NCBI GenBank assembly: GCA_946535225.1
Contig: CAMNDJ010000009.1
Span: 1 to 50,868 of the forward strand
DNA from: an uncultured Lachnospiraceae bacterium
GTDB lineage: Bacteria; Bacillota; Clostridia; Lachnospirales; Lachnospiraceae
Length of the DNA: 50,868 nt
Reading direction: 5' to 3'
Shown: positions 1-39,103 of the stretch, piece by piece
How the letters are laid out: each line of letters begins with the position of its first letter
How positions within the stretch are numbered: the first letter of the stretch is position 1
Program-made: the position numbers and the translations under genes
The notes under the pieces: generated by a model
Database searches by the model: none
Told to the model about the DNA's origin: nothing
What the model saw: only the letters and a program-made list of their open reading frames with translations

Positions 1-1296
1 CATATTAGAGAAAATGATGAATATACGGTGATATGGCTCTTCAATATCGGCGTGGAGAAATACTGGAATAACAATGTGTTTACGGTAAAAAGCGCAGGCG
101 ATGACATTGTTGTAGCCCATATGGAAGAGATGAACCTGTTGATAACAAGGAAGCAGGACATCATGATCTTAAGAGACGAACCTGATGCTGCATATCTTGA
201 AAAGATGCATCAATTCGGTGCAGAGATCCCTTCCATAGTATGCCCTTCGGTTAAGGATGATGATAAGAGCATATCGGAGATAGTCTTGGAAGACGAAAGC
301 CTGACAGACAGGATAAAGGAACTGTGCAGGGACAGGGAGAGAGTCGTCTTCGTTCCGTACGGAGTTTCTGTCCTTGAAGAGAAGATAGCACGGAAACTGG
401 GTGTAGATATATTCGGGCCCGGATCTGCAGATGCGATCAAAGTAAATGACAAGGTCTATTCGAGAAGATTTGCGATAGAGCACGGATTCAGAGTTCCTGA
501 AGGAAAGATATGCCTTGGATATGATGAACTGTGCAGCATATCGGGAGAATATCTTGAGAGATTCGGCAGGATAATAATCAAGGAGCCTCACGGTGCGTCA
601 GGCAAAGGTCTATGGGTTGTTGAAACGGCTGCAAAACTTAAGAGCACGCTTCTTATCATCAAGAGATTCTACGATGTATCCGAGGACAGGGAATGGATCG
701 TGGAACAGTGGTGCGACAAGCTCACCGATCTTAACTATCAGGTCTATGTGGGAGATGACGGCGACAAGGTTCATGTTGAAGTTTTCTCCGTTAAGGAACA
801 GAGAGTTAACGGTACCGTATATACAGGATCCGTCATACCGCCCTCATTTGACAAAAAGATCGTAAATGAGTGTGATGAATGCGGCAGGATCATAGGCGAA
901 GAATTATACAGAGAAGGTTACAGAGGCATACTCGGCATAGATGCGATGATCTTAAGTTCCGGTGAACTGATACCGATAGTGGAGATCAACGGAAGGTTCA
1001 CTTTGTCGACCTATCTATCATTTATTCCCGACAGATGCAAGGGAGTAACAGACAAGATCTTTGCTTCTTATCGTAAGATAAAGCTTGATCCCGGTGACAG
1101 ATATATCACCTTTGTGAACAAACTGACCGATGCCGGGATAGCATATAAGGATAGAGACGGTGTGTTCATCTACACATCCGAGACCGTGAATTCAAACAGA
1201 ACAGGGGAGTACGGCAGACTCTTCACCCTGTGTCTGGGCGGTGATGAGTCAAGAACAGATGAACTTGATGCAAAGTGCAGGCAGATCATTGAATAG
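1..1296 (+). CDS. ATP-grasp ligase, 5'-truncated by window edge
   Basis: This is an ATP-grasp family carboxylate-amine ligase, which would activate a carboxylate as acyl phosphate and join it to an amine or thiol. Visible family features are the glycine-rich ATP loop (PHGASGKGLW, bases about 586-615) and the metal-binding end of the fold (EINGRF, about 982-999). The reading frame has no stop back to base 1 and already reads as coding before the GTG at 28, so the true start probably lies outside the window. If it began at GTG 28 it would have 422 residues. An acyl carrier protein starts 14 bases downstream, and pseudaminic acid genes follow, so a role in loading the carrier or building an acyl or aminoacyl substituent is plausible. 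The substrate cannot be read from the sequence. The family call is good; the role is inference. Confidence 0.8.
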   Translation, partial: HIRENDEYTVIWLFNIGVEKYWNNNVFTVKSAGDDIVVAHMEEMNLLITRKQDIMILRDEPDAAYLEKMHQFGAEIPSIVCPSVKDDDKSISEIVLEDESLTDRIKELCRDRERVVFVPYGVSVLEEKIARKLGVDIFGPGSADAIKVNDKVYSRRFAIEHGFRVPEGKICLGYDELCSISGEYLERFGRIIIKEPHGASGKGLWVVETAAKLKSTLLIIKRFYDVSEDREWIVEQWCDKLTDLNYQVYVGDDGDKVHVEVFSVKEQRVNGTVYTGSVIPPSFDKKIVNECDECGRIIGEELYREGYRGILGIDAMILSSGELIPIVEINGRFTLSTYLSFIPDRCKGVTDKIFASYRKIKLDPGDRYITFVNKLTDAGIAYKDRDGVFIYTSETVNSNRTGEYGRLFTLCLGGDESRTDELDAKCRQIIE

Positions 1297-1310
1297 AAAG
1301 GCGGATCAAG

Positions 1311-1550
1311 ATGGAAGATAAGATCAAAGAGATAGTAGTAACTGTATTGGAATTATCGGAAGATGATGCGGAACAGATCACGGAAGATACGGATCTTCTG
1401 GAATACGGACTTGATTCCATGACCTGTGTGGAAGTGGTGGTCAATCTGGAAGAGGAATTCGGGATCACCGTGGATGAAGAGGATCTGTTGGTCGAGAACA
1501 TGTCCACGATCGGAAAGATTAAGGATCTGGTCGAGAAGTACGAAGACTGA
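1311..1550 (+). CDS. Acyl carrier protein
   Basis: A 79-residue acidic acyl carrier protein of the usual four-helix size. The phosphopantetheine attachment site is visible as LDSMTCVEV, with Ser36 as the modified residue. A good ribosome binding site (AAAGGCGG) precedes the ATG. The gene is not beside fatty acid genes (no fabD, fabG or fabF) but between an ATP-grasp ligase and a DUF4910 protein at the head of a glycan cluster. It is therefore probably a dedicated carrier for an acyl or aminoacyl group used in sugar modification, not the housekeeping AcpP. The carrier function is well supported. The cargo is unknown. Confidence 0.9.
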   Translation: MEDKIKEIVVTVLELSEDDAEQITEDTDLLEYGLDSMTCVEVVVNLEEEFGITVDEEDLLVENMSTIGKIKDLVEKYED

Positions 1551-1594
1551 TATATCATCTGATCAAAAAACGTAAGAACAGGCAGGATGCGATC

Positions 1595-2905
1595 ATGAGT
1601 GATGGTTTTGAAGCCGGAAGGCGAATGTACCGGTTTGCTGAGAAGATATTCCCTTATACGAGGAGCATAACGGGAGAAGGTGTCAGACAGACATTAAAGG
1701 ATCTGGCTGATTATATAAGGCCTGCGGGTGCAGAGCTTAAGGTAAGCGGTATACCGTCAGGTACTAAGGTGTTTGACTGGACGGTTCCCAAAGAATGGAA
1801 GATAAAAGATGCCTATATTGAGAATGAGTCCGGTGAGCACATCATAGACATGAAGGAGAACAACCTCCATGTTCTCGGTTATTCGGTTCCGGTTGATGAA
1901 TGGGTGGACTTAGACGGACTTAAGGAGCATATCTATGTCGAAGACGGCCAGCCGGACGTGATCCCGTACGTGACGTCGTATTATAAGGAGCGTTTCGGTT
2001 TCTGCATGAGCAAAAAAATGCGCGACTCACTTCCCGAAGGCCGCTATCATATGTATATCGACAGCGAACTGTTTGACGGGGTGTTGAATTATGCAGAGGC
2101 TGTGATACCGGGCGAGACTGATGATGAGATACTGTTCTCAACATACTTCTGTCATCCGTCAATGGCAGATAACGAATGCTCGGGTCCGGCACTTGCCGCA
2201 GAGCTGATATCGACTCTTGCAGAGGCACCTCGACTTAAGTATACATACAGATTTGTGTTCGTGCCCGAGACAATAGGATCGATCACTTATCTTAGTCAGG
2301 ATGACCATGTTCCGTATCTTAAGGAACATGTGAAGGCGGGTTTTGTATTATCCTGCGTGGGAGATGACCTTGATTATTCAATGGTCGAGTCAAGATACGG
2401 TGATTCATATGCGGACAGGGTACTTAAGAATGTTCTTAAGTACAAGGAGAAACATACGATATACGGATTTCATGAAAGAGGCTCCGATGAGAGGCAGTAC
2501 AATGCACCGGGTGTGGACCTTCCGGTAGTCGTGTTCTGCAGATCGAAGTTCGGAGAATTTCCTGAATATCATACTTCTGCTGACAATATGACATTTGTGT
2601 CACCTGAAGGTTTTCAGGGAGCATATGATGCCATGATCGAGGCGATAGAGATACTTGAGAAGAATGCATATTACAGAGTGAAGGTCCTGTGCGAACCACA
2701 GCTCGGCAAGAGGGGGCTCTATTCAGACATAAGCCGAAAGGGGACTTATGACGGGATTATGGTACAGAGAGACGTGATCTCGTATGCCGACGGGCGAAAC
2801 GATCTGCTCGATCTAAGTGAGCGGATAGGGGTTCCGGTATCTGAGATCGTTGATATAGTGGACAGACTGGTCGACAATGACCTGTTGGAGAAAGTAGGGG
2901 AATAA
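1595..2905 (+). CDS. DUF4910 family aminopeptidase-like protein
   Basis: 436 residues resembling the DUF4910 family (older name DUF2172), Zn-peptidase-fold proteins related to M28 aminopeptidases that recur in polysaccharide clusters. Candidate metal and catalytic residues are conserved in order: His187 and Asp192 (CHPSMADNECSG), Glu225 (VPETIGS), His326 and Asp330 (YHTSADN). The C-terminal 70 residues look like the winged-helix tail common in this family. No signal peptide is visible, so it should act in the cytoplasm. It lies between the acyl carrier protein and pseI, with one base before pseI. It may hydrolyse an amide or aminoacyl bond made by the neighbouring ATP-grasp enzyme. The family call is firm; the substrate is unknown. 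Confidence 0.8.
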   Translation: MSDGFEAGRRMYRFAEKIFPYTRSITGEGVRQTLKDLADYIRPAGAELKVSGIPSGTKVFDWTVPKEWKIKDAYIENESGEHIIDMKENNLHVLGYSVPVDEWVDLDGLKEHIYVEDGQPDVIPYVTSYYKERFGFCMSKKMRDSLPEGRYHMYIDSELFDGVLNYAEAVIPGETDDEILFSTYFCHPSMADNECSGPALAAELISTLAEAPRLKYTYRFVFVPETIGSITYLSQDDHVPYLKEHVKAGFVLSCVGDDLDYSMVESRYGDSYADRVLKNVLKYKEKHTIYGFHERGSDERQYNAPGVDLPVVVFCRSKFGEFPEYHTSADNMTFVSPEGFQGAYDAMIEAIEILEKNAYYRVKVLCEPQLGKRGLYSDISRKGTYDGIMVQRDVISYADGRNDLLDLSERIGVPVSEIVDIVDRLVDNDLLEKVGE

Positions 2906-2906
2906 A

Positions 2907-4040
2907 TTGTTCAGCCATAACATTAAGATAGGTGACAAATATATAGGTGACGATCATCCGGCGTTTATAGTAGCGGAAATGTCGGGTAATCATAACGGAA
3001 GCTATGACAGGGCAGTAGAGCTTGTACATGCGGCGGCAGAGGCAGGTGCGGATGCCGTGAAACTGCAGACCTATACTGCAGATACCATCACGATAGACTG
3101 TGACAAGCCGTGGTTTAGGACTTCGGATTCCAATATGTGGGCAGGACGAACCCTGTATGACCTCTATAAGGAGGCTTATACTCCGTGGGAATGGCAGCCG
3201 CGTCTTAAGGAAGAAGCAGAGAAACTGGGACTTATCTGTTTCTCTTCTCCTTTTGATCCTACGTCGGTGGATTTCTTAGAGGAGATGGATGTACCTGCAT
3301 ATAAGATCGCAAGCTATGAGATCAATGACATACCTCTTATCCGTAAGGTCGCATCGCTTCACAAGCCGGTGATATTCGCCACAGGCATAGCATATCCGGA
3401 GGATATACAGAGAGCTCTTGTTACATGCCTTGATGCGGGCAATGACCGGGCGATATTATTAAAGTGTGTGAGTGCTTATCCGACTCCTTACGACCAGGTA
3501 AATTTACGGGTCATGAAGACACTTGCTTCTGAGCATAACTGCATCGTCGGTCTGTCTGATCATACACCGGGATCGGTAGTTCCGGTAGGAAGTATAGTGA
3601 TGGGCGGCAAGATGATAGAGAAGCATCTGACCCTGGATCGGAATGCGGGAGGTGTTGATGATGCATTCTCGATGGAGCCTGAGGAATTCGCATCCATGGT
3701 AAGAGATGTCCGTATAATGGAGCAGGCTTTGGGCTCGGATGTATATGCTCTTACGGACAAACAGAAGGAAGAGCATAAAGGCAGTCGCTCGCTTTTTGCG
3801 GTAACGGATATCAAGGCGGGAGAGATCATCACCACTGATAATGTCAGATCGATAAGGCCTGGCATTGGTATGCATACTATGCATTATGATGAGATACTCG
3901 GACGACCTGCCGCTCAGGATATAGAGAAGGGAACACCGATAAGCCCTAAGCTCATTGACGGAGTCAAGTGGGATGAACTGCTGTACGGCGGACAGGCGAT
4001 TACGAAGCAAAATGGGGTGAGTGAGCCTCAGGGCAATTGA
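2907..4040 (+). CDS. pseI: Pseudaminic acid synthase (NeuB family)
   Basis: PseI condenses 2,4-diacetamido-2,4,6-trideoxy-L-altrose with phosphoenolpyruvate to give pseudaminic acid. The 377-residue protein shows the NeuB TIM-barrel signature AEMSGNHNG (residues 23-31) and KLQTY (52-56), then the C-terminal SAF (antifreeze-like) domain from about residue 292 (GSRSLFAVTDI). The text and length match PseI better than NeuB sialate synthase. The start is TTG, with AGGGGA just upstream inside the end of the preceding gene. It is followed by pseG, and pseF lies 6 kb downstream. Legionaminic or another nonulosonic acid is the main alternative product. Confidence 0.9.
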   Translation: MFSHNIKIGDKYIGDDHPAFIVAEMSGNHNGSYDRAVELVHAAAEAGADAVKLQTYTADTITIDCDKPWFRTSDSNMWAGRTLYDLYKEAYTPWEWQPRLKEEAEKLGLICFSSPFDPTSVDFLEEMDVPAYKIASYEINDIPLIRKVASLHKPVIFATGIAYPEDIQRALVTCLDAGNDRAILLKCVSAYPTPYDQVNLRVMKTLASEHNCIVGLSDHTPGSVVPVGSIVMGGKMIEKHLTLDRNAGGVDDAFSMEPEEFASMVRDVRIMEQALGSDVYALTDKQKEEHKGSRSLFAVTDIKAGEIITTDNVRSIRPGIGMHTMHYDEILGRPAAQDIEKGTPISPKLIDGVKWDELLYGGQAITKQNGVSEPQGN

Positions 4041-4078
4041 TCTTATTTGAAACAAGAGGGAAATCTGACGGTAGACAG

Positions 4079-5152
4079 ATGGTAGGTATCAGAACAGACG
4101 CCAATACGATAATAGCAACAGGTCACATGATGAGATGCATCACGATAGCGAAGTCGATCGTGAGCATGGGAGGGTCTGTGACCTTTTTTATTGCGGATGA
4201 AGAGTCAGAGATCCTTCTTAAGAAAAATCTCGGCGACTTAAATGACGTGAGTGTCGTTGTGCTGCACACTGCCTGGGACGATCTGATAAACGAGCTTCCT
4301 GTGCTCATAGAGCAACTTCAGTTAAGAAATGTTGACACATTACTGGTCGATTCATATAAGGTCACATATGATTATTTCAAAGCCGTGGACCGTGTATGCA
4401 AGACTGCATATATAGATGATCTGCATGAAGGAATATTCCCCGTGGATATTCTGATCAATTACAGCGGATACCATTATGTGTTTGATTATGCTTCGGATTA
4501 TGAACGAATGCACGGACATAAAGATGAACCGACTAAGCTTTTGCTCGGACTTATGTATGCGCCGCTCAGAGAACAGTTCCATACGGACGTAGCAGCAGGT
4601 ATGAAACGATCCGGTGAAGTAAAAGATATACTTCTTGCATGCGGAGGAGCGGATACTCAGAATATGATACTTCCTATGCTGGAAGTCATATGTGACAGAG
4701 GACTTAATACGGATGGCATGAACTGGCATACGGTAGTGGGGGATTATGTGGACAATGCTGAAGCAATAGAGGCATTTGCTTCAATGCATGAGGGGATAAC
4801 GATCCACAGATCCGTTAAGAATATGGCTTCTTTGATGCGATCATGTAACATTGCGGTCGTTGCGGCAGGAACAATGCTCACGGAATGCGCGGCAGTAAGA
4901 CTCCCTGCAGTTTTCTATCAGGTTGCCGATAATCAGAGATACGGTGTGGATTATTGGAGGCAGCCCGGGAGAATGATATATGCCGGAGATGTGACACAGG
5001 ATAAAGATATGGTCATCGCAGCGATCGTTAAGGAAGTGATGAGGCTTATACACGATCATGACTTGATCATTAAGATAACAGAGGGATTATTAGGTATCAC
5101 GGACGGACGAGGCGCCGAGAGGATAGCGAACGCTCTTAAGAGCGAAGGATAA
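4079..5152 (+). CDS. pseG: PseG-type UDP-sugar hydrolase
   Basis: PseG removes UDP from UDP-2,4-diacetamido-2,4,6-trideoxy-beta-L-altropyranose, giving the substrate of PseI. The N-terminus has the family signature (IRTDANTIIATGHMMRC, start of the protein), with the expected His of GHxMR, and the C-terminal GT-B-like half carries LLACGGADTQN and AAGTMLTECAA. I place the start at ATG 4079 because known PseG proteins begin just before IRTDA. A TTG at 4037 overlapping the pseI stop by four bases would add 14 residues and has a closer Shine-Dalgarno-like sequence, so the start is not certain. The pair pseI-pseG is almost certainly cotranscribed. Confidence 0.85.
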   Translation: MVGIRTDANTIIATGHMMRCITIAKSIVSMGGSVTFFIADEESEILLKKNLGDLNDVSVVVLHTAWDDLINELPVLIEQLQLRNVDTLLVDSYKVTYDYFKAVDRVCKTAYIDDLHEGIFPVDILINYSGYHYVFDYASDYERMHGHKDEPTKLLLGLMYAPLREQFHTDVAAGMKRSGEVKDILLACGGADTQNMILPMLEVICDRGLNTDGMNWHTVVGDYVDNAEAIEAFASMHEGITIHRSVKNMASLMRSCNIAVVAAGTMLTECAAVRLPAVFYQVADNQRYGVDYWRQPGRMIYAGDVTQDKDMVIAAIVKEVMRLIHDHDLIIKITEGLLGITDGRGAERIANALKSEG

Positions 5153-5194
5153 GAGACTAAAAGGGAAGATCAGAAGAGTATCATAAGGGGATAT

Positions 5195-6361
5195 ATGAAT
5201 ATGAGAATGACTGTGATAGGGGCTTCAGATGAGGCCATACATACAATTGAATGTGCCAAACGATTGGGTATAGAGACCGTAGCTTTGGACGGAAATCCCG
5301 AGGCAGCAGGGCTTGAAGCGGCTGACATACCGATCGTGGTTGACATAACTGACGAGAAAGCAACTGCAGAGATCGTCGCAGAACTGGGAACAGATTGGAT
5401 CCAGACCGTGCCGATAGGAAGGTATCTTACGACCACCGGTGCCGTCAATGACGAACTTGGACTTCCGGGCATTACCCGTGACATGGCGGTACTGTGTACG
5501 GATAAGTATGCTTTTCATAAGGCTCTGTCCGAAGCCGGTTTAAGAAACTGTCACTGCGCGCTGGTAAGGGGCGGAGCAATAGAATCCGAGTGTTCTTACC
5601 CTGTTATCCTTAAGCCCAGATACGGGTCAGGCAGCAGAGGGATAATGATAGCGAATAACGAGTCCGAACTTGCATCGATCTTATCGGATATGGAAGATAT
5701 CGATGAAGACTATATCTTAGAAGAGTGTCTTGACGGGGATGAATACGGAATAGATGGCGCGGTTACGGAAGGTAAGTTTCATCTTATACTTGTTCGTTAC
5801 AAGATCAATACTCCAATGCCTGACAGGCAGGCCGTGGCCTATATGAGCATCAGTACAGATTCAGAGATATATGATAAGATCCGTGACTATATGAGCCGGG
5901 TCGTTAACGTGATGGAGCTTGATGAATGCCTGATGCATGCGGATATCCTGGATTCAGACAGAGGTATATTCGCGATCGAAGTATCGGCCAGACCATCCGG
6001 TCATAATCTTCATAATCTGTTCACGCCGCTGTGCACCGGTGTAGATATGGCAGAGGAATACATCAAATATCGAATGGGAGAGACATATTCCTTTGAGCCG
6101 AAGCAGACAGAGAATATGATGATCCGCTACTTTGACATGGAAGGTGAGATAAGGAGTGTTCCCAAGGAGAGTCAAGTGCAGCAAACAGTTAAGGATCATG
6201 GAGCAAAGCTCGTTGACTGGAGATGCAATATAATGCCCGGTGATGTACTTGAACCCGTAACCACCGGCCATTCCCTTATGTACAGAGGATATTACATAAC
6301 AAAGCTTGGCGATCGGACGGATCCTGATGCACTTCACAAGGATATATTAAACGGATTCTGA
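5195..6361 (+). CDS. ATP-grasp enzyme of the carbamoyl-phosphate synthase/PurK type
   Basis: 388 residues with an N-terminal Rossmann-like pre-ATP-grasp domain (VIGASDEAIHTIECAK) followed by an ATP-grasp core: KPRYGSGSRGI is the glycine-rich loop, EECLDGDEYGIDG the nucleotide-binding strand, and AIEVSARPSG the metal-binding end. It is a soluble ligase of the sort that couples amino acids or other acids to amines. It follows pseG by 42 bases, with AAGGGG ahead of the ATG, and is the second ATP-grasp protein within 5 kb. A role in decorating the nonulosonic acid or a glycan residue is suggested by context only. The family is certain; the substrate is not. Confidence 0.8.
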   Translation: MNMRMTVIGASDEAIHTIECAKRLGIETVALDGNPEAAGLEAADIPIVVDITDEKATAEIVAELGTDWIQTVPIGRYLTTTGAVNDELGLPGITRDMAVLCTDKYAFHKALSEAGLRNCHCALVRGGAIESECSYPVILKPRYGSGSRGIMIANNESELASILSDMEDIDEDYILEECLDGDEYGIDGAVTEGKFHLILVRYKINTPMPDRQAVAYMSISTDSEIYDKIRDYMSRVVNVMELDECLMHADILDSDRGIFAIEVSARPSGHNLHNLFTPLCTGVDMAEEYIKYRMGETYSFEPKQTENMMIRYFDMEGEIRSVPKESQVQQTVKDHGAKLVDWRCNIMPGDVLEPVTTGHSLMYRGYYITKLGDRTDPDALHKDILNGF

Positions 6362-6425: not shown

Positions 6426-7475
6426 ATGAGATTAAGTATCATAGTTCCCGTCTATAATATGGCGGCAGATAACAAACTTACATATTGCCTTGATTCACTT
6501 GTCGCGCAGACTGTTGATGACTATGAGATCATAGCGGTGGATGACTGCTCGACGGATGATTCTTATGCGGTCATGCAGCAGTATGAGCGCAGGTATCCGG
6601 AAAAGTTCCGTGCGATCCACAGTGAGGTCAATCTTCATCAGGGCGGCGCCAAGAATATCGGGATCAGAGAGGCAAAGGGCGAGTGGATCGGTTTCATCGA
6701 TGCGGATGACTGGATAACACCCGATTACTATGAGAAGATGATAGGAAGGGCACAGGATACCGGAGCCGATATAGTTGGTTGTGATTACAATATAGTTCAC
6801 AGTCATACATTTGAGGTGGGCGAGATCGATCACAACAGCAAGCCCGATCAGGCAGGGGTCCTTGATCATGACAGAAAAAAGAGCATGATCTTAGACGGCG
6901 GCTCTCTGTGTGTCAAGATATTCCGAAGAAAGACCATCTTAGACAATAAATTGTTCTTCCCGGAGAATATCTTCTATGAAGACAATGCGATGGGTAATTC
7001 ATATATGCTCACGGGAACCTGCTTCGAATATATAGAAGAGCCCATGTATTATTACTATCAGCACGGGGATTCCACTGTTCATTCATTCTCCAAAGCAAGA
7101 TGCGAGGACAGGATGGAAGCCGGAAGGATAATGATATCCGAGGCGAAAAGATTGGGATTCTATGATGAGTTTAAGCCCGAGCTTGAATATAAGTTTACGC
7201 AGCTGTTCTACGTGAACACACTGTTTACCTATATGCCCTGTGTTCGCCCGACAAGGCTTACATTTGTAAGGGAGATGACAGCTGAGTTGCTCGCATTTTT
7301 TCCGAAGTTCAGGGATAATGCCTACTATAAGGAGCGAACAGGACAGGAAGAGAAACGCCTCATTGATATGGCTTGTTCCTCACCGCTTCGATTCTATATC
7401 TATTACAAGCTCCTGTGGGCATACAGAAATACAATGAAGAAACTTAATCCGGTAAGAGACGGAAAGATCGAATAA
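6426..7475 (+). CDS. Glycosyltransferase family 2
   Basis: A 349-residue GT-A fold glycosyltransferase of family 2. The start SIIVPVYNMA, the VDDCSTDDS strand and FIDADDWI (the DxD metal and nucleotide-sugar site) are all visible in the first 110 residues. The C-terminal part is soluble with no obvious membrane segment, so it should act on the cytoplasmic face on a lipid-linked acceptor. The donor sugar cannot be predicted. It lies within the pseudaminic acid part of the operon, 64 bases after the ATP-grasp gene and 6 bases before a YgjP-type metallopeptidase gene. Confidence 0.88.
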   Translation: MRLSIIVPVYNMAADNKLTYCLDSLVAQTVDDYEIIAVDDCSTDDSYAVMQQYERRYPEKFRAIHSEVNLHQGGAKNIGIREAKGEWIGFIDADDWITPDYYEKMIGRAQDTGADIVGCDYNIVHSHTFEVGEIDHNSKPDQAGVLDHDRKKSMILDGGSLCVKIFRRKTILDNKLFFPENIFYEDNAMGNSYMLTGTCFEYIEEPMYYYYQHGDSTVHSFSKARCEDRMEAGRIMISEAKRLGFYDEFKPELEYKFTQLFYVNTLFTYMPCVRPTRLTFVREMTAELLAFFPKFRDNAYYKERTGQEEKRLIDMACSSPLRFYIYYKLLWAYRNTMKKLNPVRDGKIE

Positions 7476-10243: not shown

Positions 10244-10933
10244 ATGAGAGTATTGGCTATAATAACCGCCAGAGGCGGCAGCAAGAGGATACCGAGGAAG
10301 AATATCAAGGAGTTTAACGGCAAGCCCATAATGGCTTACTCTATTGAAGCGGCAGCAGGCTCAGGCGTGTTCGATAAGGTCATGGTTTCAACCGAGGATG
10401 AAGAGATAGCTTCGATAGCAAAGGAATACGGAGCAGAGGTTCCATTTTTAAGGAGCGAAAAGACGGCCGGAGATTTTGCCACTACAGCTGATGTTATAGA
10501 AGAGGTCCTGTCAGAGTATCGCAAACTCGGTGAAGAGTTTGATATAGCTGCCTGCATTTATCCTACGGCGCCTTTTATCACTCCGGGCAGACTTAAGAGT
10601 GCGGTTGAAGAACTGGTTGATTCTGATGCGGACTCACTTATTCCGGTAGTCAGGTTTTCCTTCCCCCCACAGCGGGCAATGGAGATCCGTGAAGGAACTC
10701 TGGTTTTCAGACAGCCTGAATACTTAAATTCCAGATCACAGGATCTGACCCCGCATTATCATGACGTGGGGCAGTTCTATATATTCAGAACTGAGAGTTT
10801 TATGAATAACCACAGGATAATGGCAGGTAAGATGATACCGCTTGAGCTGTCGGAGATAGAAGTTCAGGATATAGATAATCCGGTGGACTGGCAGCTTGCG
10901 GAACTTAAGTACAAGCTGTTGCATGAACAGTGA
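10244..10933 (+). CDS. pseF: CMP-pseudaminic acid cytidylyltransferase
   Basis: PseF activates pseudaminic acid with CTP to give CMP-Pse, the donor for transferases. The 229-residue protein has the cytidylyltransferase P-loop-like motif RGGSKRIPRKN at residues 10-20, IYPTAPF, and the HDVGQFYIF block typical of PseF (NeuA-type proteins differ here). It completes the sequence pseI-pseG-pseF in this locus and is followed by a likely nonulosonate transferase. A legionaminic acid enzyme is the nearest alternative. Confidence 0.9.
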   Translation: MRVLAIITARGGSKRIPRKNIKEFNGKPIMAYSIEAAAGSGVFDKVMVSTEDEEIASIAKEYGAEVPFLRSEKTAGDFATTADVIEEVLSEYRKLGEEFDIAACIYPTAPFITPGRLKSAVEELVDSDADSLIPVVRFSFPPQRAMEIREGTLVFRQPEYLNSRSQDLTPHYHDVGQFYIFRTESFMNNHRIMAGKMIPLELSEIEVQDIDNPVDWQLAELKYKLLHEQ

Positions 10934-10976
10934 TGCGGATTGAAACGGCACTGAATGTTTGCCGTGGTGTATTGAT

Positions 10977-12047
10977 ATGAAAGACAGAATATATATATGT
11001 CATACGTTTTATCATGTATATATATCGGTGATAAAGGAATTAAACCTCCCCAGGGAAGCCCGTAGTAATGCTTCGATCATCTTAAGTACCATGTCCAATG
11101 ATTTCGGGAACCTGGATGTCAAGCTTAAGAAATGCGGACTTTTTGAAGAAGTATTTCTGTTTGATGAGAAGGAGGATGTGTCTCTTCCGGAAGTGATGAA
11201 ATATCACACAGACCGGGGCAATCTGCTCCTCAATCTCATTCAGAGGATAAGATATACCAAGGCTTTGGGGATGGCACAGGAAGAGTACATACCTACAGAT
11301 CTTAAACAGTATAAGGATATATATGTATTCTGTGATTCGGATCCAATTGGGTTTTATCTCAATTATAAGAAGATAAGATATCATGCCGTAGAGGACGGAT
11401 TGGATACGATACTGTATTGTGACAGTGCCAGATACAGTAATATCGGACACTTCGGTATCAAGGCATTTATGGCCCGTCTTGGACTGATCTTTATAGAGAA
11501 CGGTTATTCTAAGTACTGCATCGATATGGAGGTCAATAATGTACGGGATATCAAATATCCCATGCATTTCTATAAAGAGGTTCCGAGGAAAGTCCTTACG
11601 GACAATGTCTCAGAGACAGACAGATATTATCTGACGGATATATTTATGGAAGATCCGGACCGGCTTCTTGCCCAGGTTGCACAGATAGACAGTGACAGAC
11701 GAAAAGTTCTCATCTTATCCGATCCGGTCTGCGATCTGGATACACGTAAGATCATAATGCGTGATATAATTAACGAATATGGGCAGAACTCGGCAGTGTT
11801 CATCAAGCCTCATCCCAGGGATGTGCTGGATTATGAGTCAGATGATTTTGCCGACTGCATAGTGCTCAAAGGAAGATTTCCCATGGAGATCATGAATTAT
11901 TTCCCTGAGCTGCATATGGATCTGGCACTGTCGATATTTACGACTGTCGACAGCATAGAATTCGCTGATGAGAAGCGTAAGCTCGGTGCGGATTTCATGG
12001 ACAAATACGAAGACCCTGCCATACACAGGGAGAACGAGCAGATTTAA
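10977..12047 (+). CDS. GT52-like candidate CMP-nonulosonate (pseudaminyl) transferase
   Basis: A 356-residue soluble GT-B type protein resembling family 52 sialyltransferases. Bacterial sialyltransferases of families 38, 52 and 80 share a D/E-D/E-G motif and an HP motif. Here EDG is at residues 139-141 (HAVEDGLDTI) and HP at 279-280 (IKPHPRD), with TTVDS following near 322. The gene directly follows pseF and precedes an ABC flippase, so transfer of Pse from CMP-Pse to a lipid-linked glycan is the natural role. I prefer ATG 10977. A TTG at 10959 would add six residues. Neither has a strong ribosome binding site. The family call is moderately sure; donor specificity is inferred. Confidence 0.72.
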   Translation: MKDRIYICHTFYHVYISVIKELNLPREARSNASIILSTMSNDFGNLDVKLKKCGLFEEVFLFDEKEDVSLPEVMKYHTDRGNLLLNLIQRIRYTKALGMAQEEYIPTDLKQYKDIYVFCDSDPIGFYLNYKKIRYHAVEDGLDTILYCDSARYSNIGHFGIKAFMARLGLIFIENGYSKYCIDMEVNNVRDIKYPMHFYKEVPRKVLTDNVSETDRYYLTDIFMEDPDRLLAQVAQIDSDRRKVLILSDPVCDLDTRKIIMRDIINEYGQNSAVFIKPHPRDVLDYESDDFADCIVLKGRFPMEIMNYFPELHMDLALSIFTTVDSIEFADEKRKLGADFMDKYEDPAIHRENEQI

Positions 12048-17388: not shown

Positions 17389-18519
17389 ATGATCAATTTT
17401 AACGTACCTCCGTTTACGGGCAGGGAATACGATTATATCAAGGAGGCCGTGGATAATCAGAAGATATGCGGTGACGGTCCGTTTACAAAGCGGTGCAATG
17501 AGTGGATAGAGAAAAAGACCGGCTGTAATAAGGCGCTTCTTACGACTTCCTGTACTCATGCTACGGAGCTTGCTGCTTTGCTGGCCGATATCAAAGAAGG
17601 CGATGAAGTCATAATGCCGTCTTATACATTTGTATCAACGGCGGATGCCTTTGTGCTTCGTGGAGCGACACCGGTATTCGTTGATGTAAGGCCTGATACC
17701 ATGAACATCGATGAGAATAAGATAGAGGATGCTGTAACGGATAAGACCAGAGCCATCGTTCCGGTGCATTATGCAGGTGTCGGCTGTGAAATGGATGTGA
17801 TAACGGATATAGCTAAGAGGCATGATCTGCTCGTTATAGAGGATGCAGCTCAAGGAATTATGTCAACCTACAAAGGTAAGGCTTTGGGAGCGATCGGAGA
17901 TTTCGGATGTTTTTCATTCCATGAGACCAAGAATTTCTCCATGGGAGAAGGAGGCGCGATACTCATAAAGGATGAGAAATATGTCGAGAAGGCAGAGATA
18001 TTCCGTGAGAAGGGTACTGACAGAAGTAAGTTCTATCGCGGACAGGTAGACAAATACAGATGGCAGGATTTCGGGTCTTCATACCTTCCTTCGGATATGA
18101 ACGCAGCTTATCTCTGGGCGCAGCTCGAACTGGCAGATGAGATCACAAAGGCGAGGATGGACAGGTGGGAGCAGTATTATAAGAGGCTTACACCGTTAGC
18201 GGAAAGCGGTCGTATAGAGCTCCCTTACGTTCCTGAATACTGTACTCATAATGCCCATATGTTCTATATAAAGGCAAAGGATCTTAAGGAGCGTACGGAT
18301 CTTATAAGCTTCCTTAAGAGCAAGGACATACTCGCGGTATTCCACTATGTTCCGCTTCATACCGCACCGGCAGGTCTTAAGTACGGAAGGTTTGACGGAA
18401 CGGATGAGCATACCACGACTGAAAGTGACAGACTTGTCAGGTTGCCGATGTATTACCGACTCACCGAAAAAGATGTTGACTATATCTGTGATATGGTCCT
18501 TGAATTCTATAAAAAATAA
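17389..18519 (+). CDS. wecE: dTDP-4-amino-4,6-dideoxygalactose transaminase
   Basis: A 376-residue DegT/DnrJ/EryC1/StrS aminotransferase that closely resembles E. coli WecE (RffA) along its length. Examples are KICGDGPFTKRC, VIMPSYTFVSTADAF, RPDTMNID, IVPVHYAGVGCEMD and FREKGTDRSKF. The PLP lysine is Lys181 (FHETKNFS). The enzyme turns dTDP-4-keto-6-deoxyglucose and glutamate into dTDP-4-amino-4,6-dideoxygalactose (Fuc4N). rmlA and rmlB, which make its substrate, are not in the window. A GNAT 3 kb downstream could N-acetylate the product. The stop overlaps the next start by one base (TAATG). Confidence 0.9.
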   Translation: MINFNVPPFTGREYDYIKEAVDNQKICGDGPFTKRCNEWIEKKTGCNKALLTTSCTHATELAALLADIKEGDEVIMPSYTFVSTADAFVLRGATPVFVDVRPDTMNIDENKIEDAVTDKTRAIVPVHYAGVGCEMDVITDIAKRHDLLVIEDAAQGIMSTYKGKALGAIGDFGCFSFHETKNFSMGEGGAILIKDEKYVEKAEIFREKGTDRSKFYRGQVDKYRWQDFGSSYLPSDMNAAYLWAQLELADEITKARMDRWEQYYKRLTPLAESGRIELPYVPEYCTHNAHMFYIKAKDLKERTDLISFLKSKDILAVFHYVPLHTAPAGLKYGRFDGTDEHTTTESDRLVRLPMYYRLTEKDVDYICDMVLEFYKK

Positions 18520-21341: not shown

Positions 21342-21872
21342 ATGCAAAAGATTTCAGGTGAATCGAACAGAATATATATAAGACCTATCACGCAGGACGA
21401 TACGGATCTTATCGTGGAATGGCGTAATCGTGAGGACGTGAGGGAGCATTTCTTCTTCAGGGAGAGATTTACGAAGGCCATGCATGAGAAATGGCTTACA
21501 GAGAAGGTCATGACGGGCATGGTGGACCAGTTCATAGTATGCCTTAAGGATGGTGACAGACCGATCGGAAGCAGTTATCTGCGGGACATTGACAGGGAAG
21601 CGGGTTCGGCGGAATACGGTATCTTCATCGGAGAAGCCGATGCAAGAGGAATAGGCTTGGGATACGACATCCTGTGTGCGACCATGGATCATGCGATCGA
21701 TAAACTCGGACTTAAGCTTGTCAGAGCCAGAGCGATCTCGACCAATCTGGCTTCCATACATATATTTGAGAAATACGGTTTTGTGAGAGATGAACTGATA
21801 AGAAACGTCACCTGTTCCGATGCGAATATGGTCGATATGGTGATGTTAAGTTACAGGGTGACCAAGGACTGA
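21342..21872 (+). CDS. GNAT acetyltransferase, PseH- or WecD-like
   Basis: 176 residues of the RimJ/RimL-like GNAT fold. It has RIYIRPITQDD at the start, the VEWRNREDVREHFFF motif seen in amino-sugar acetyltransferases, and the acetyl-CoA loop DARGIGLGYDIL. The pseudaminic acid route needs PseH to N-acetylate the 4-amino-altrosamine, and the WecE product can also be N-acetylated by a WecD-type enzyme. No other candidate for either step lies in the window. The distance from pseI and the closeness to wecE make the Fuc4N assignment slightly more likely. The GNAT call is firm. Confidence 0.8.
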   Translation: MQKISGESNRIYIRPITQDDTDLIVEWRNREDVREHFFFRERFTKAMHEKWLTEKVMTGMVDQFIVCLKDGDRPIGSSYLRDIDREAGSAEYGIFIGEADARGIGLGYDILCATMDHAIDKLGLKLVRARAISTNLASIHIFEKYGFVRDELIRNVTCSDANMVDMVMLSYRVTKD

Positions 21873-29656: not shown

Positions 29657-30829
29657 ATGAAGAAGATATACCTTTCATCACCGACGATGTACGGTGATGA
29701 ACAAAGATTTGTTGCGGAAGCTTTCGATACCAATTGGGTCGCACCGTTAGGCCCCAATGTCAATGCATTTGAGAAGGAGATGGTCGAATATACGGGCTGT
29801 GGCCATGCGGCGGCGCTTTCTGCGGGAACCGCAGCACTCCATTTGGCAATGAAGTGTCTTAATATCGGTCCCGGAGACGTGGTGTTCTCTTCGGATCTGA
29901 CATTCGCTGCAACCTGCAATCCGGTGACATATGAGAACGGAACGCTTGTGTTCATTGATTCGGAGTATGACACCTGGAACATGGATCCTGAGGCGCTTAA
30001 GAAGGCTTATGAGAAGTATCCGAATCCCAAGGCCATTGTGATGGCTCATCTGTACGGAACTCCGTCCAAGATCGATGAACTTATGGCGATCGTACGTGAG
30101 CACGGCACACCTGTCATAGAGGATGCCGCAGAGGCTTTAAGCTCTACATACAAAGGCAGACAGTGCGGAACATTCGGGGATATAGGTATCTATTCATTTA
30201 ACGGTAACAAGATCATAACCACATCCGGCGGAGGAATGATGGTATCGAAGAATGAGGAGTACACGAAGTTTGCGGTATTCCTTTCGACACAGGCAAGAGA
30301 TCCGGCCAGATACTATCAGCACAGTCACATAGGATACAATTACCGTATGTCCAATGTCGTGGCGGGCATCGGCCGCGGTCAGTTACTGCACTTAGAGGAG
30401 CATAAGGCTCTTAAGAAAAAAATATATGCGACTTACAGACAGGCATTCGAAGACATCTCGGATATTCAGATGAATCCTCTTAACAAGGACGGTGATGCCA
30501 ACTGCTGGCTTTCCTGCATGACGATCTCAGACGGGTGTTCTGTTAAGCCGGATGATGTAATGGATGCTCTGGCTGAGCTAAATATCGAGACAAGACCCAT
30601 ATGGAAGCCAATGCATCTTCAGCCTGTATATGCGGATAATGATTTCTTTACCGCAGACGGACAGCAGGCTAATGCCGCCAGGGTTAAGGGCGATAACGGT
30701 GATGACTGGGATAAGAGTGCAGGCGGAGATATCTTCAGACACGGATTGTGCCTGCCGTCTGATATCAAGAATACAGATGAAGATATGGACCTCATCATCA
30801 AGACCGTCAGAAAAGTATTTGGGAAATAA
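29657..30829 (+). CDS. pglE: PglE-like UDP-amino-sugar aminotransferase (DegT family)
   Basis: A 390-residue DegT/DnrJ/EryC1/StrS aminotransferase. The PLP lysine is Lys185 (SFNGNKIITTSGGG), and the N-terminal YLSSPTMYGDEQRFVAEAF and FIDSEYDTWNMDP blocks are those of the PglE/EpsN group. It should convert UDP-2-acetamido-4-keto-2,4,6-trideoxyglucose to the 4-amino sugar in bacillosamine synthesis. A polar insert (TADGQQANAARVKGDNG, bases 30650-30710) precedes the C-terminus. pglC and pglD follow at once, which supports the assignment. The 4,6-dehydratase pglF is missing. Confidence 0.85.
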   Translation: MKKIYLSSPTMYGDEQRFVAEAFDTNWVAPLGPNVNAFEKEMVEYTGCGHAAALSAGTAALHLAMKCLNIGPGDVVFSSDLTFAATCNPVTYENGTLVFIDSEYDTWNMDPEALKKAYEKYPNPKAIVMAHLYGTPSKIDELMAIVREHGTPVIEDAAEALSSTYKGRQCGTFGDIGIYSFNGNKIITTSGGGMMVSKNEEYTKFAVFLSTQARDPARYYQHSHIGYNYRMSNVVAGIGRGQLLHLEEHKALKKKIYATYRQAFEDISDIQMNPLNKDGDANCWLSCMTISDGCSVKPDDVMDALAELNIETRPIWKPMHLQPVYADNDFFTADGQQANAARVKGDNGDDWDKSAGGDIFRHGLCLPSDIKNTDEDMDLIIKTVRKVFGK

Positions 30830-30831
30830 CA

Positions 30832-31470
30832 GTGAACAATCATAAACCTCACGGAATTTATGAGAAATGTATAAAACGCCCGTTGGACGCAGTGCTGGCA
30901 ACGACTGCGGCAGTAGTGCTGTCCCCGGTTATGTTAACCACAGCGATCCTTGTACGTACCAAACTCGGATCACCGGTGCTGTTTACTCAGGAACGTCCCG
31001 GCAAGGATGAGAAGATCTTTAAGCTATATAAGTTTCGCACGATGACGGATGCAAGGGACTCTGAAGGTAATCTTCTCCCGGACAAGGACAGGCTTCCCGA
31101 ATTCGGGCGTAAACTCAGGGCTACATCCTTGGATGAATTACCTGAGCTTTTCAATATCATCAAGGGCGATATGAGCATAGTCGGGCCGAGACCGTTACTT
31201 GTTAAATATCTTCCGAGGTACAATGATGTACAGAAGCGCAGGCACGAGGTCAGGCCTGGGTTTACTGGGCTTGCTCAGGTGCACGGCAGGAACAGTATAT
31301 CATGGGAGGAGAAATTCGATTGGGATGTGAAATATATTGATAGGATCACGTTTATGGGAGATCTTAAGATTATCCTGGATACGGTTGGTACGGTGTTTAA
31401 GCGGGAGGGCATAAGTGCCGAGGGTAGCGCCACCATGGAGGAGTTCATGGGCAGAGAAGAGGAGAAATAA
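30832..31470 (+). CDS. pglC: PglC-like undecaprenyl-phosphate sugar phosphotransferase
   Basis: 212 residues, a small monotopic phosphoglycosyl transferase (bacterial sugar transferase family). One N-terminal hydrophobic re-entrant segment (about 18-42) is followed by KFRTM, the catalytic pair Asp101-Glu102 (TSLDELPELFNI) and VGPRPLL. It transfers a phospho-sugar, probably diNAc-bacillosamine phosphate, to undecaprenyl phosphate and so starts the glycan. The start is GTG, two bases after pglE. The short length (about 200) matches PglC rather than the large WbaP type. Confidence 0.88.
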   Translation: MNNHKPHGIYEKCIKRPLDAVLATTAAVVLSPVMLTTAILVRTKLGSPVLFTQERPGKDEKIFKLYKFRTMTDARDSEGNLLPDKDRLPEFGRKLRATSLDELPELFNIIKGDMSIVGPRPLLVKYLPRYNDVQKRRHEVRPGFTGLAQVHGRNSISWEEKFDWDVKYIDRITFMGDLKIILDTVGTVFKREGISAEGSATMEEFMGREEEK

Positions 31471-31471
31471 C

Positions 31472-32077
31472 TTGAAAAAGGTAGTGATCATAGGCGCCAG
31501 TGGGCATGGCAAGGTGATAGCTGACATCATAAAGAAGAGTGGAGATACCGTTCAGGGGTATTTGGATGATGATGAGTCTTTGGGAGATGAATTCTACGGA
31601 TATCCGCTGTTTGGTAAGGTGGAGTGTTTTGCTGATATGAGAGGCAGCGCCTTTGTTATAGCCATAGGTAATGGAGCAATTCGAAGGCGTATCACCGGAA
31701 TGATGGGGAATGTTGACTGGTACACAGCAATACATCCGTCTGCTGTCATAGCTGACGGAACAAGTATCGGAGAGGGAACTGTGATCATGGCAGGTGCCGT
31801 TATCGGCCCGGATGTCAGAATAGGGAGACATTGTATCATCAATACCTCTTCGGTTGTAGAACACGACAATGAGATAGAGGATTTCGTTCATATTTCAGTG
31901 GGAACTAAACTTGCCGGGACAGTTCATGTCGGAGAAGGATCATGGATAGGCATTGGAGCGGTGGTCAGCAACAATCTCAGTATCTGCGCAGATTGTATGG
32001 TGGGCGCCGGTGCGGTAGTCATTAAGGATATTGACAGTCCGGGAACTTATGTGGGAGTTCCTGCCGCGAAACTGTGA
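31472..32077 (+). CDS. pglD: PglD-like amino-sugar N-acetyltransferase
   Basis: 201 residues. An N-terminal Rossmann-like half (VVIIGASGHGKVIADI) binds the UDP-sugar, and a left-handed beta-helix of hexapeptide repeats follows from about residue 90. His131 (VEHDNEIED) is at the position of the PglD catalytic base. It uses acetyl-CoA to finish UDP-N,N'-diacetylbacillosamine. I start at TTG 31472, which follows GAGGAG at the right distance and the pglC stop. An upstream start at 31415 would lie inside pglC and add 19 residues without homology to the family. Confidence 0.87.
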   Translation: MKKVVIIGASGHGKVIADIIKKSGDTVQGYLDDDESLGDEFYGYPLFGKVECFADMRGSAFVIAIGNGAIRRRITGMMGNVDWYTAIHPSAVIADGTSIGEGTVIMAGAVIGPDVRIGRHCIINTSSVVEHDNEIEDFVHISVGTKLAGTVHVGEGSWIGIGAVVSNNLSICADCMVGAGAVVIKDIDSPGTYVGVPAAKL

Positions 32078-38352: not shown

Positions 38353-38410
38353 CATATACAATGTGTACAAAAAAACAGCACAAAATGTCAATAAATTCGT
38401 GCGTGTAGTA

Positions 38411-38439
38411 TTGACACATACGTCAAAAAGTAATAGACT
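38411..38439 (+). promoter_or_regulatory. Sigma-A promoter of the DUF6465 gene
   Basis: A perfect -35, TTGACA (38411-38416), a 17-base spacer and TAGACT (38434-38439). The predicted leader is about 75 bases before ATG 38519. Confidence 0.75.
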
Positions 38440-38518
38440 CACTAATGTACTGATAGAAAATGACAACAAAAGATTTGTCATAGATTGTGATTTGCGTTTG
38501 AAAGAAGGGAGAGACAAG

Positions 38519-39103
38519 ATGGCAATCGAGAAAGTAACTGCTACTCTTAAGAAGGACGTAGCACCTGTTAAGACAGCTACAGCCACTGTTAAGGCTGACG
38601 CTCTTAAGACAGATATCAAGACACCTGAAGTTAAGGCAGCAGCTAAGCCCGCTGCAAAGCCCGCAGCTAAGAAGGCAGCTAAGCCTGCAGCTAAGAAGGC
38701 AGCAGCTAAGAAGCCCGCAGCTAAGAAGACTACAGCCAAGAAGACAACTACAGCAGCAGCTAAGAAGCCCGCTACAGCAGCAGCTAAGAAGACAACTGCA
38801 GCAGCAGCCAAGAAGCCCGCTACAGCAGCTAAGAAGCCTGCAGCTAAGAAGACGACCAAGAAGACTGCAGCTAAGAAGACTGTACTTAAGACAACAGCTT
38901 TATTTGCGGTAGCAGAAGGTGAGAACCTTACAGCTGATGCACTTATGAAGAAGTACCTTAAGACAGCTAAGGATCGTTGCAAATATGATCTCGGTCTTAA
39001 GACAGCAGACGTTAAGAGCATTGACCTTTACCTCAACATCAAGGAGCAGATGGTTTACTCTGTTATCAACGGAGAGATCAACGATAAGTTCGAGATGTAT
39101 TGA
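38519..39103 (+). CDS. Histone-H1-like Lys/Ala-rich protein with DUF6465 domain
   Basis: 194 residues. After a short N-terminal part, residues about 35-122 are a Lys/Ala/Pro/Thr repeat tract (AAKKPA, AAKKTT units) like eukaryotic histone H1 tails and bacterial AlgP/HctB-type proteins. A DUF6465 domain of about 68 residues ends the protein (DLGLKTADVKSIDLYLNIK). The tail is very basic and should bind DNA or RNA without specificity. GAAGGGAGAG precedes ATG 38519. The frame is open upstream to 38363, but that start would lie ahead of the promoter. It has its own promoter and a strong terminator, so it is monocistronic. A nucleoid role is inferred. Confidence 0.83.
   Translation: MAIEKVTATLKKDVAPVKTATATVKADALKTDIKTPEVKAAAKPAAKPAAKKAAKPAAKKAAAKKPAAKKTTAKKTTTAAAKKPATAAAKKTTAAAAKKPATAAKKPAAKKTTKKTAAKKTVLKTTALFAVAEGENLTADALMKKYLKTAKDRCKYDLGLKTADVKSIDLYLNIKEQMVYSVINGEINDKFEMY

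Follow-up and report, generated by a model that had tools for sequence, protein, structure and literature searches.

A predicted butirosin-type acyl loader in a pseudaminic acid operon of an uncultured Lachnospiraceae bacterium

What does a stand-alone acyl carrier protein (ACP) do among the genes for pseudaminic acid (Pse)? The question is raised by contig CAMNDJ010000009.1 of an uncultured Lachnospiraceae bacterium (assembly GCA_946535225.1), whose entire 50,868 nucleotides form the window analyzed here (contig C9 of a draft genome that totals 2,043,335 bases over 129 contigs). The window begins with six open reading frames (ORFs) on one strand, which encode an ATP-grasp enzyme (ATP-grasp 1), an ACP, a DUF4910 protein, PseI, PseG, and a second ATP-grasp enzyme (ATP-grasp 2). 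The natural reading of ACP, ATP-grasp, and Pse genes in one tight run is the carrier-bound acylation of a Pse-route amino sugar. We propose, with a probability of about 0.42, that the operon makes a Pse whose amino group derived from N-acetylglucosamine (GlcNAc) bears an amino-acyl group built on the carrier; by analogy, the most likely product would be Pse, or its uridine diphosphate (UDP)-sugar precursor, bearing gamma-aminobutyrate (GABA). Judged from the gene families, the system would be a butirosin-type acyl loader placed in a known kind of sugar N-acyl-exchange operon.

The nine-gene run and the contig join

The first ORF of the window is truncated, its true start lying seven codons ahead of base 1. 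The last 55 bases of another contig of the same genome, C1, are the first 55 bases of the window, and joining C1 to C9 yields an ATP-grasp 1 of 438 residues with zero internal stops. On C1, which was examined over 12.25 kb (locus L052), the run extends upstream through pseC, a gene for an AAC(3)-like N-acyltransferase, and a gene for a pyridoxal phosphate (PLP)-dependent decarboxylase resembling BtrK of butirosin biosynthesis. The full order is pseC, AAC(3)-like, BtrK-like, ATP-grasp 1, ACP, DUF4910, pseI, pseG, and ATP-grasp 2, with successive gaps of -8, -4, 8, 14, 44, 1, -4, and 42 bases, the first three belonging to the C1 genes and those within the window ranging from -4 to 44. The join is supported by locus L027, from the Lachnospiraceae metagenome-assembled genome RGIG10209 of yak rumen, because this locus carries, on one unbroken contig, the closing part of an AAC(3)-like gene followed by the PLP decarboxylase, ATP-grasp 1, ACP, and DUF4910 genes.

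PseB, PseC, PseG, PseI, and PseF all exceed their curated cut-offs in the genome of the window, with pseB lying about 7.6 kb further upstream on C1 beyond intervening genes, one of them on the opposite strand. The ORFs and domain matches bear out the initial annotation of the window as far as it described six tightly packed same-strand genes of the named families and an ACP with Ser36 in the motif LDSMT.

Gene company of the predicted loader, DUF4910, and ATP-grasp 2

The nearest solved structures to the decarboxylase are those of BtrK (312 bits for both 7ru7 and 2j66), and its L027 homologue scores 312 bits against BtrK versus 193 bits against the runner-up, diaminopimelate decarboxylase. The protein is 34-48% identical to nine BtrK-like proteins from other ATP-grasp-1 loci; these identities alone were used, as the tree, in spite of its two well-supported branches, contained at least two wrong rows (L059 and L060, in which the longest ORF gave no BLAST match to the decarboxylase). 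BtrK is described as acting on BtrI, a carrier protein of 87 residues, converting BtrI-S-glutamate into BtrI-S-GABA (PMC7857480). ATP-grasp 1 is 92% identical to its L027 counterpart and weakly resembles PGM1 and the L-propargylglycine--L-glutamate ligase BesA, with a PGM1_C match below the cut-off. Its PreATP-grasp domain (PF18604) is rare in the family, occurring in two of 397 genomes, the window's own counted. An AlphaFold model of ATP-grasp 1 built from two sequences (mean predicted local distance difference test score 34.9) was set aside.

A full-length ATP-grasp 1 profile detected 12 of 391 genomes of the class, its own included, with 13 places outside the window, of which 12 (L051 and L084-L094) were compared and the weakest (L079) was left out; over the whole study, 1804 genome entries were searched, many repeatedly. 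In the 12 loci, an ACP adjoins the ATP-grasp 1-like gene in 11, a BtrK homologue is present in nine and adjacent in eight, and BtrH-like genes occur in two, while DUF4910, AAC(3)-like, and Pse genes occur in none. This company identifies the BtrK-BtrJ-BtrI trio as a recurring unit, and ATP-grasp 1 and the ACP are thus predicted to belong to a butirosin-type loader; the copies in the window and in L027 are exceptions, placed in a sugar locus. Two BtrH-like queries, both from L051, found no match in the window or in the 12.25 kb of C1, and an AMP-ligase query likewise found none. The missing BtrH-like match weakens the notion of a full butirosin system and leaves unaffected the notion of a module that works like its loader; the AAC(3)-like gene occupies the place of BtrH.

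As a separate observation, L051 itself, from a member of the family (genome G108), carries BtrH-like, BtrK-like, ATP-grasp, and ACP genes consecutively (L051:7388-11169). An AMP-ligase gene and another BtrH-like gene lie close by, and the locus is possibly a butirosin-like side-chain cluster.

DUF4910 keeps different company. Matches were found in 25 of 299 family genomes at E 1e-3, of which the 16 strong ones outside the window were used and nine weak partial ones were excluded; four further strong matches came from the 391 genomes of the class. An AAC(3)-like gene is present in 10 of the 16 family loci and adjacent in seven. It is absent from all 24 similarly sized control loci, 12 per ATP-grasp (Fisher p 9e-6, or 9e-4 against the 12 ATP-grasp-2 loci alone); the controls are not lineage-matched, and contig ends cut some loci. 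A Pse-type match of at least 50 bits occurs in nine of the 16, and a carrier loader next to DUF4910 recurs, since an AMP-ligase is present in seven and an ACP in six. At the class level, two of the four loci have an AAC(3)-like gene, and the same two have Pse-type genes. ATP-grasp 1 is near DUF4910 in none of the 20 other loci. In the AAC(3)-like enzymes, H169 is kept in 12 of 13 and E172 in 13 of 13 sequences, the two residues being presumably the catalytic pair. The grouping of ATP-grasp, ACP, and DUF4910 as one unit, put forward in the initial annotation, was accordingly abandoned, since its partners separate elsewhere: ATP-grasp 1 goes with the ACP and mostly with BtrK, and DUF4910 goes with AAC(3)-like genes. 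The broader proposal of carrier-bound Pse modification survives through the tight run of ACP, ATP-grasp, and Pse genes, without this triplet as a natural unit.

The window protein has the complete DUF4910, DUF2172, and HTH_47 architecture, each domain above its cut-off. Its residues H187, D192, E225, and H326 had been described as an intact set in a peptidase-like protein; H187, E225, and H326 are indeed kept in all 21 aligned proteins, but Asp at position 192 is found in the window protein alone, the other 20 having Asn. The column of the zinc ligand Asp195 of structure 3k9t holds N193 in the window protein and Asn in 18 of 21, while the zinc-ligand histidine columns (His189 and His324) are kept in 21 of 21. 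An ordinary M28 zinc peptidase is ruled out by Ser189 and Pro224 at the catalytic Asp/Glu positions of M28. Das et al. (2014; PMC4000134) solved the structure of CA_C2195 (3k9t) and report that it binds one zinc and is devoid of the M28 catalytic residues, which they state for the family. They propose sugar modification, perhaps transacylation, and point out that distinctive active-site residues would be required to deacylate a sugar amide. Hitchen et al. (2010; PMC3068675) associate Cj1295 with Campylobacter jejuni Pse carrying 2,3-di-O-methylglyceroyl instead of acetyl on the C5 nitrogen and suggest that Cj1295 takes off the acetyl. The assignment of Cj1295 to DUF4910 is inferred from the family descriptions in these two papers and not from its sequence. 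By analogy, the simplest common role of DUF4910 is probably sugar N-deacylation, after which the AAC(3)-like enzyme would here re-acylate the sugar. The link of DUF4910 to modified sugars, Pse included, is already published, and the earlier statement that no described route exists was too strong in view of the DUF4910 cluster of Das et al. and the 5-N-acyl Pse variant associated with Cj1295.

ATP-grasp 2 is, on the evidence of its neighbors, a separate Pse-linked gene. At E 1e-40, it was found in 13 of 299 family genomes, its own included. Of its 12 other loci, nine contain PseI, eight PseF, seven PseG, and one an ACP, and none contains DUF4910, ATP-grasp 1, or the AAC(3)-like gene. In a genome of the same genus (G213), the Pse locus includes ATP-grasp 2, and there is no match to the loader, DUF4910, or PreATP-grasp. 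DUF4910 and ATP-grasp 2 can nevertheless co-occur, because one class-level DUF4910 locus (L095) has an ATP-grasp-2-like gene (227 bits) and the Clostridium acetobutylicum cluster of Das et al. has an ATP-grasp ligase. The idea of ATP-grasp 2 as a simple replacement for PseH was dropped. Of 18 genomes, comprising 13 that have ATP-grasp 2 and five others, 17 contain a PseH-like GNAT, which passes the cut-off in two, a spread that speaks neither way.

Another PLP decarboxylase was observed between pseF and pseI in one ATP-grasp-2 locus (L053:11039-12349), its best solved match being N-citrylornithine decarboxylase (111 bits). Such a gene is present in five of the 12 loci, the relatives in L114, L115, L116, and L123 being weaker, and these sequences hint that such Pse loci supply a decarboxylated amino-acyl group by a different route.

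Proposed acylation and its alternatives

The loader has probably moved as a cassette, since its block is about 88% identical in DNA between the window's genome and L027 while the other shared genes are near silent-site saturation. Of the ten other shared genes compared, nine agree at 0.27-0.39 of their fourfold-degenerate sites and the tenth, RpiB, at 0.46, as against 0.66 for BtrK, 0.66 for ATP-grasp 1, and 0.79 for the ACP (on just 24 sites); for DUF4910, compared in two pieces, the values are 0.46 and 0.28. From the tail of the AAC(3)-like gene to a point about 110 bases into DUF4910, each of 21 segments of 150 bases has a DNA identity of 0.81-0.94; the next eight segments show 0.64-0.75, after which the genes differ. 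Such a profile is typical of recombinational exchange of a block that ends, on one side, within DUF4910; in this comparison of two genomes, the other end falls outside the L027 contig, to the left. The full set of loader and DUF4910 was seen in these two genomes only, and both have Pse genes. A provisional description of the L027 genome (G299) as a sister without Pse, prompted by its lack of a PseI match, was dropped once PseB, PseC, and PseG turned up on a separate 6.7-kb contig.

Building on gene order, family membership, conserved residues, gene company, and this signature of recent transfer, which are all observed, the following scheme is proposed. ATP-grasp 1, as a BtrJ-type ligase, would charge the ACP with L-glutamate, and the BtrK-type decarboxylase would convert glutamyl-ACP into gamma-aminobutyryl-ACP. 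DUF4910 may strip the acetyl group of the sugar to leave a free amino group, to which the AAC(3)-like enzyme, a better transferase candidate than ATP-grasp 2, would transfer the GABA group from the ACP. PseB, PseC, PseI, PseG, and PseF would assemble and activate the sugar, with ATP-grasp 2 acting separately, perhaps by attaching an amino acid at another position. A wider and more tentative proposal, which we hold to be possible but doubtful, is that of a modular surface-sugar acylation in these bacteria, in which a fixed DUF4910 and AAC(3)-like core is served by swappable loaders (usually AMP-ligase and ACP, here the butirosin-type trio) through interspecies recombination with a breakpoint in DUF4910, giving a positively charged, GABA-bearing, and so far undescribed Pse.

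Several points weigh against the proposed scheme. All of its substrates and reactions are inferred. ATP-grasp 1 is only putatively of the BtrJ type, placed there by its PreATP-grasp domain and its BtrK and ACP company. Hydrolysis by DUF4910 is unproven because the M28 catalytic residues are missing, and six of the 16 family DUF4910 loci have no AAC(3)-like gene in the stretch examined. In L027, the DUF4910 frame (L027:3040-4350) is split into ORFs 3040-3591 and 3607-4350, through either an assembly error or a real defect or decay.

The best-surviving alternative, which is nevertheless unlikely, retains the loader as proposed but makes the PseB/PseC product its acceptor, a diamino sugar destined for a polysaccharide, with PseI, PseG, and PseF serving a different sugar. 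Locus L038 has PseC, DUF4910, ACP, AAC(3)-like, and AMP-ligase genes consecutively with no PseI match in its 19.9 kb, and in L027 (12.7 kb) glycosyltransferase genes come after the module, with Pse genes absent there. The module in the window, however, is flanked by pseC and pseI, with a single base before the latter, and C. jejuni bears the exchanged acyl group on Pse. G299 likewise has no PseI match, but this decides nothing because its PseB, PseC, and PseG lie on another contig and the genome is fragmented.

In butirosin biosynthesis, BtrG removes a protecting gamma-glutamyl group from the side chain. A BtrG-like DUF4910, which would unmask a finished side chain instead of deacetylating the sugar, is suggested by its position directly next to BtrK, ATP-grasp, and ACP genes that are all butirosin-type, but is improbable, given that DUF4910 occurs without ATP-grasp 1 in all 20 of the other loci compared and that DUF4910 is missing from all 12 ATP-grasp-1 loci. 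Still less credence is given to a loader that supplies a small soluble metabolite and merely landed in the sugar operon by transfer. The trio does occur elsewhere outside Pse loci, twice near BtrH-like genes, and the block moved recently; yet the overlapping or near-touching genes on both sides and the common block boundary within DUF4910 point to use in the operon, and the BtrH-like and AMP-ligase queries drew blanks in the window and the 12.25 kb of C1. The least probable arrangement, in which ATP-grasp 1 loads the ACP, ATP-grasp 2 carries out the transfer to the sugar, and DUF4910 then trims the attached group, has the adjacency of these genes in the window in its favor but is opposed by the splitting of the partners in the 12 other ATP-grasp-2 loci, the DUF4910 locus L095 with its ATP-grasp-2-like gene notwithstanding, and by the better transferase candidate upstream.

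Known counterparts and other genes of the window

The butirosin genes btrI, btrJ, and btrK of Bacillus circulans (cluster AB097196, as cited in PMC11405602) resemble the present trio, which runs in the order K-J-I and consists of the BtrK-closest PLP decarboxylase, an ATP-grasp ligase, and a free-standing ACP; unlike in butirosin, the trio lies in a sugar operon, next to an AAC(3)-like gene, and the stretches searched gave no BtrH-like match. The C. acetobutylicum cluster CA_C2186-CA_C2199 (Das et al. 2014; PMC4000134) similarly has DUF4910 in the company of an ACP, an ATP-grasp ligase, spsE, and N-acetyltransferases for aminosugars; its published table lists no PLP decarboxylase. In the C. 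jejuni system of Cj1295 (PMC3068675), the acyl group is 2,3-di-O-methylglyceroyl and not an amino acid. Six loci of the family (L030, L032, L033, L034, L038, and L039) share DUF4910 and the AAC(3)-like gene with an ACP carrier loader, all six with a Pse-type match of at least 50 bits, but an AMP-ligase replaces the BtrJ/BtrK pair.

Within the open-licence literature, no paper was found that combines butirosin with nonulosonic, pseudaminic acid with acyl carrier protein and aminobutyr, or butirosin with ATP-grasp, acyl carrier protein, glutamyl, and decarboxylase; judged by title, none of the papers found for aminobutanoyl with lipopolysaccharide concerned a bacterial glycan, and none of those listed for O-antigen or polysaccharide contained aminobutanoyl. 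The predicted amino-acid-decorated surface sugar would be new. If true, the proposal would link the carrier-protein chemistry of antibiotic side chains with bacterial nonulosonic acids, specify an acyl group to seek in surface glycans, and provide a natural case of acyl-loader module swapping within a glycan operon. DUF4910, whose structure is solved and whose reaction is unassigned, would gain a testable AAC(3)-like partner, and the proposal would suggest that AAC(3)-like genes found in sugar operons encode glycan acyltransferases instead of conferring resistance.

Table 1. Features of the locus. Positions refer to the window unless C1 is given; C1 positions are from L052 coordinates.
Feature	Position	Strand	Evidence
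pseC	C1 ~78809-80053		
AAC(3)-like N-acyltransferase	C1 ~80046-80909		PF02522 95 bits, cut-off 25
BtrK-like decarboxylase	C1 ~80906-82165		
ATP-grasp 1, putative BtrJ-type ligase, 5' end cut by contig edge	1..1296	+	PreATP-grasp 37.7 bits (cut-off 27.5), weak PGM1_C
Stand-alone ACP, BtrI-like	1311..1550	+	PP-binding 54 bits (cut-off 20.8); Ser36 in LDSMT
DUF4910/DUF2172/HTH_47 protein, Cj1295/CA_C2195-like	1595..2905	+	three domains above cut-off; 357 bits to 3k9t
pseI, pseudaminic acid synthase	2907..4040	+	TIGR03586 458 bits, cut-off 340
pseG, UDP-sugar hydrolase	4037..5152	+	TIGR03590 175 bits, cut-off 154
ATP-grasp 2, Pse-linked putative ligase	5195..6361	+	ATP-grasp_4 56 bits, cut-off 27; best solved matches 4dim and L-amino acid ligase 3vot
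GT2 glycosyltransferase	6426..7475	+	Glycos_transf_2 121 bits; L027 homologue 69% identical, also after the module there
pseF, CMP-pseudaminic acid synthetase	10244..10933	+	TIGR03584 279 bits, cut-off 206
GT52/polysialyltransferase-like	10959..12047	+	PF07922 42 bits, cut-off 26.1; L027 homologue 71% identical, also near the module
WecE-type transaminase	17389-18519		above cut-off
PseH-like GNAT, possible Pse-route N-acetyltransferase	21342..21872	+	TIGR03585 66.5 bits, below cut-off 93.1
LegC-like aminotransferase	29657-30829		below cut-off
NeuD/PglB-type acetyltransferase	31415-32077		above cut-off

Homologues of the GT2 and GT52-like genes also lie near DUF4910 in the family loci L038 and L042, and in L042 DUF4910 directly adjoins them, with no AAC(3)-like match in that locus. 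The WecE-type, LegC-like, and NeuD/PglB-type genes of Table 1 constitute a second amino-sugar set in the same locus. Rfam gave zero matches in the window. An ORF at 38363-39103 of the window contains a long Lys/Ala/Pro-rich stretch with AAKKPAAKK repeats ahead of a differing C-terminal part, the stretch being, as we take it, similar to the tails of histone H1.

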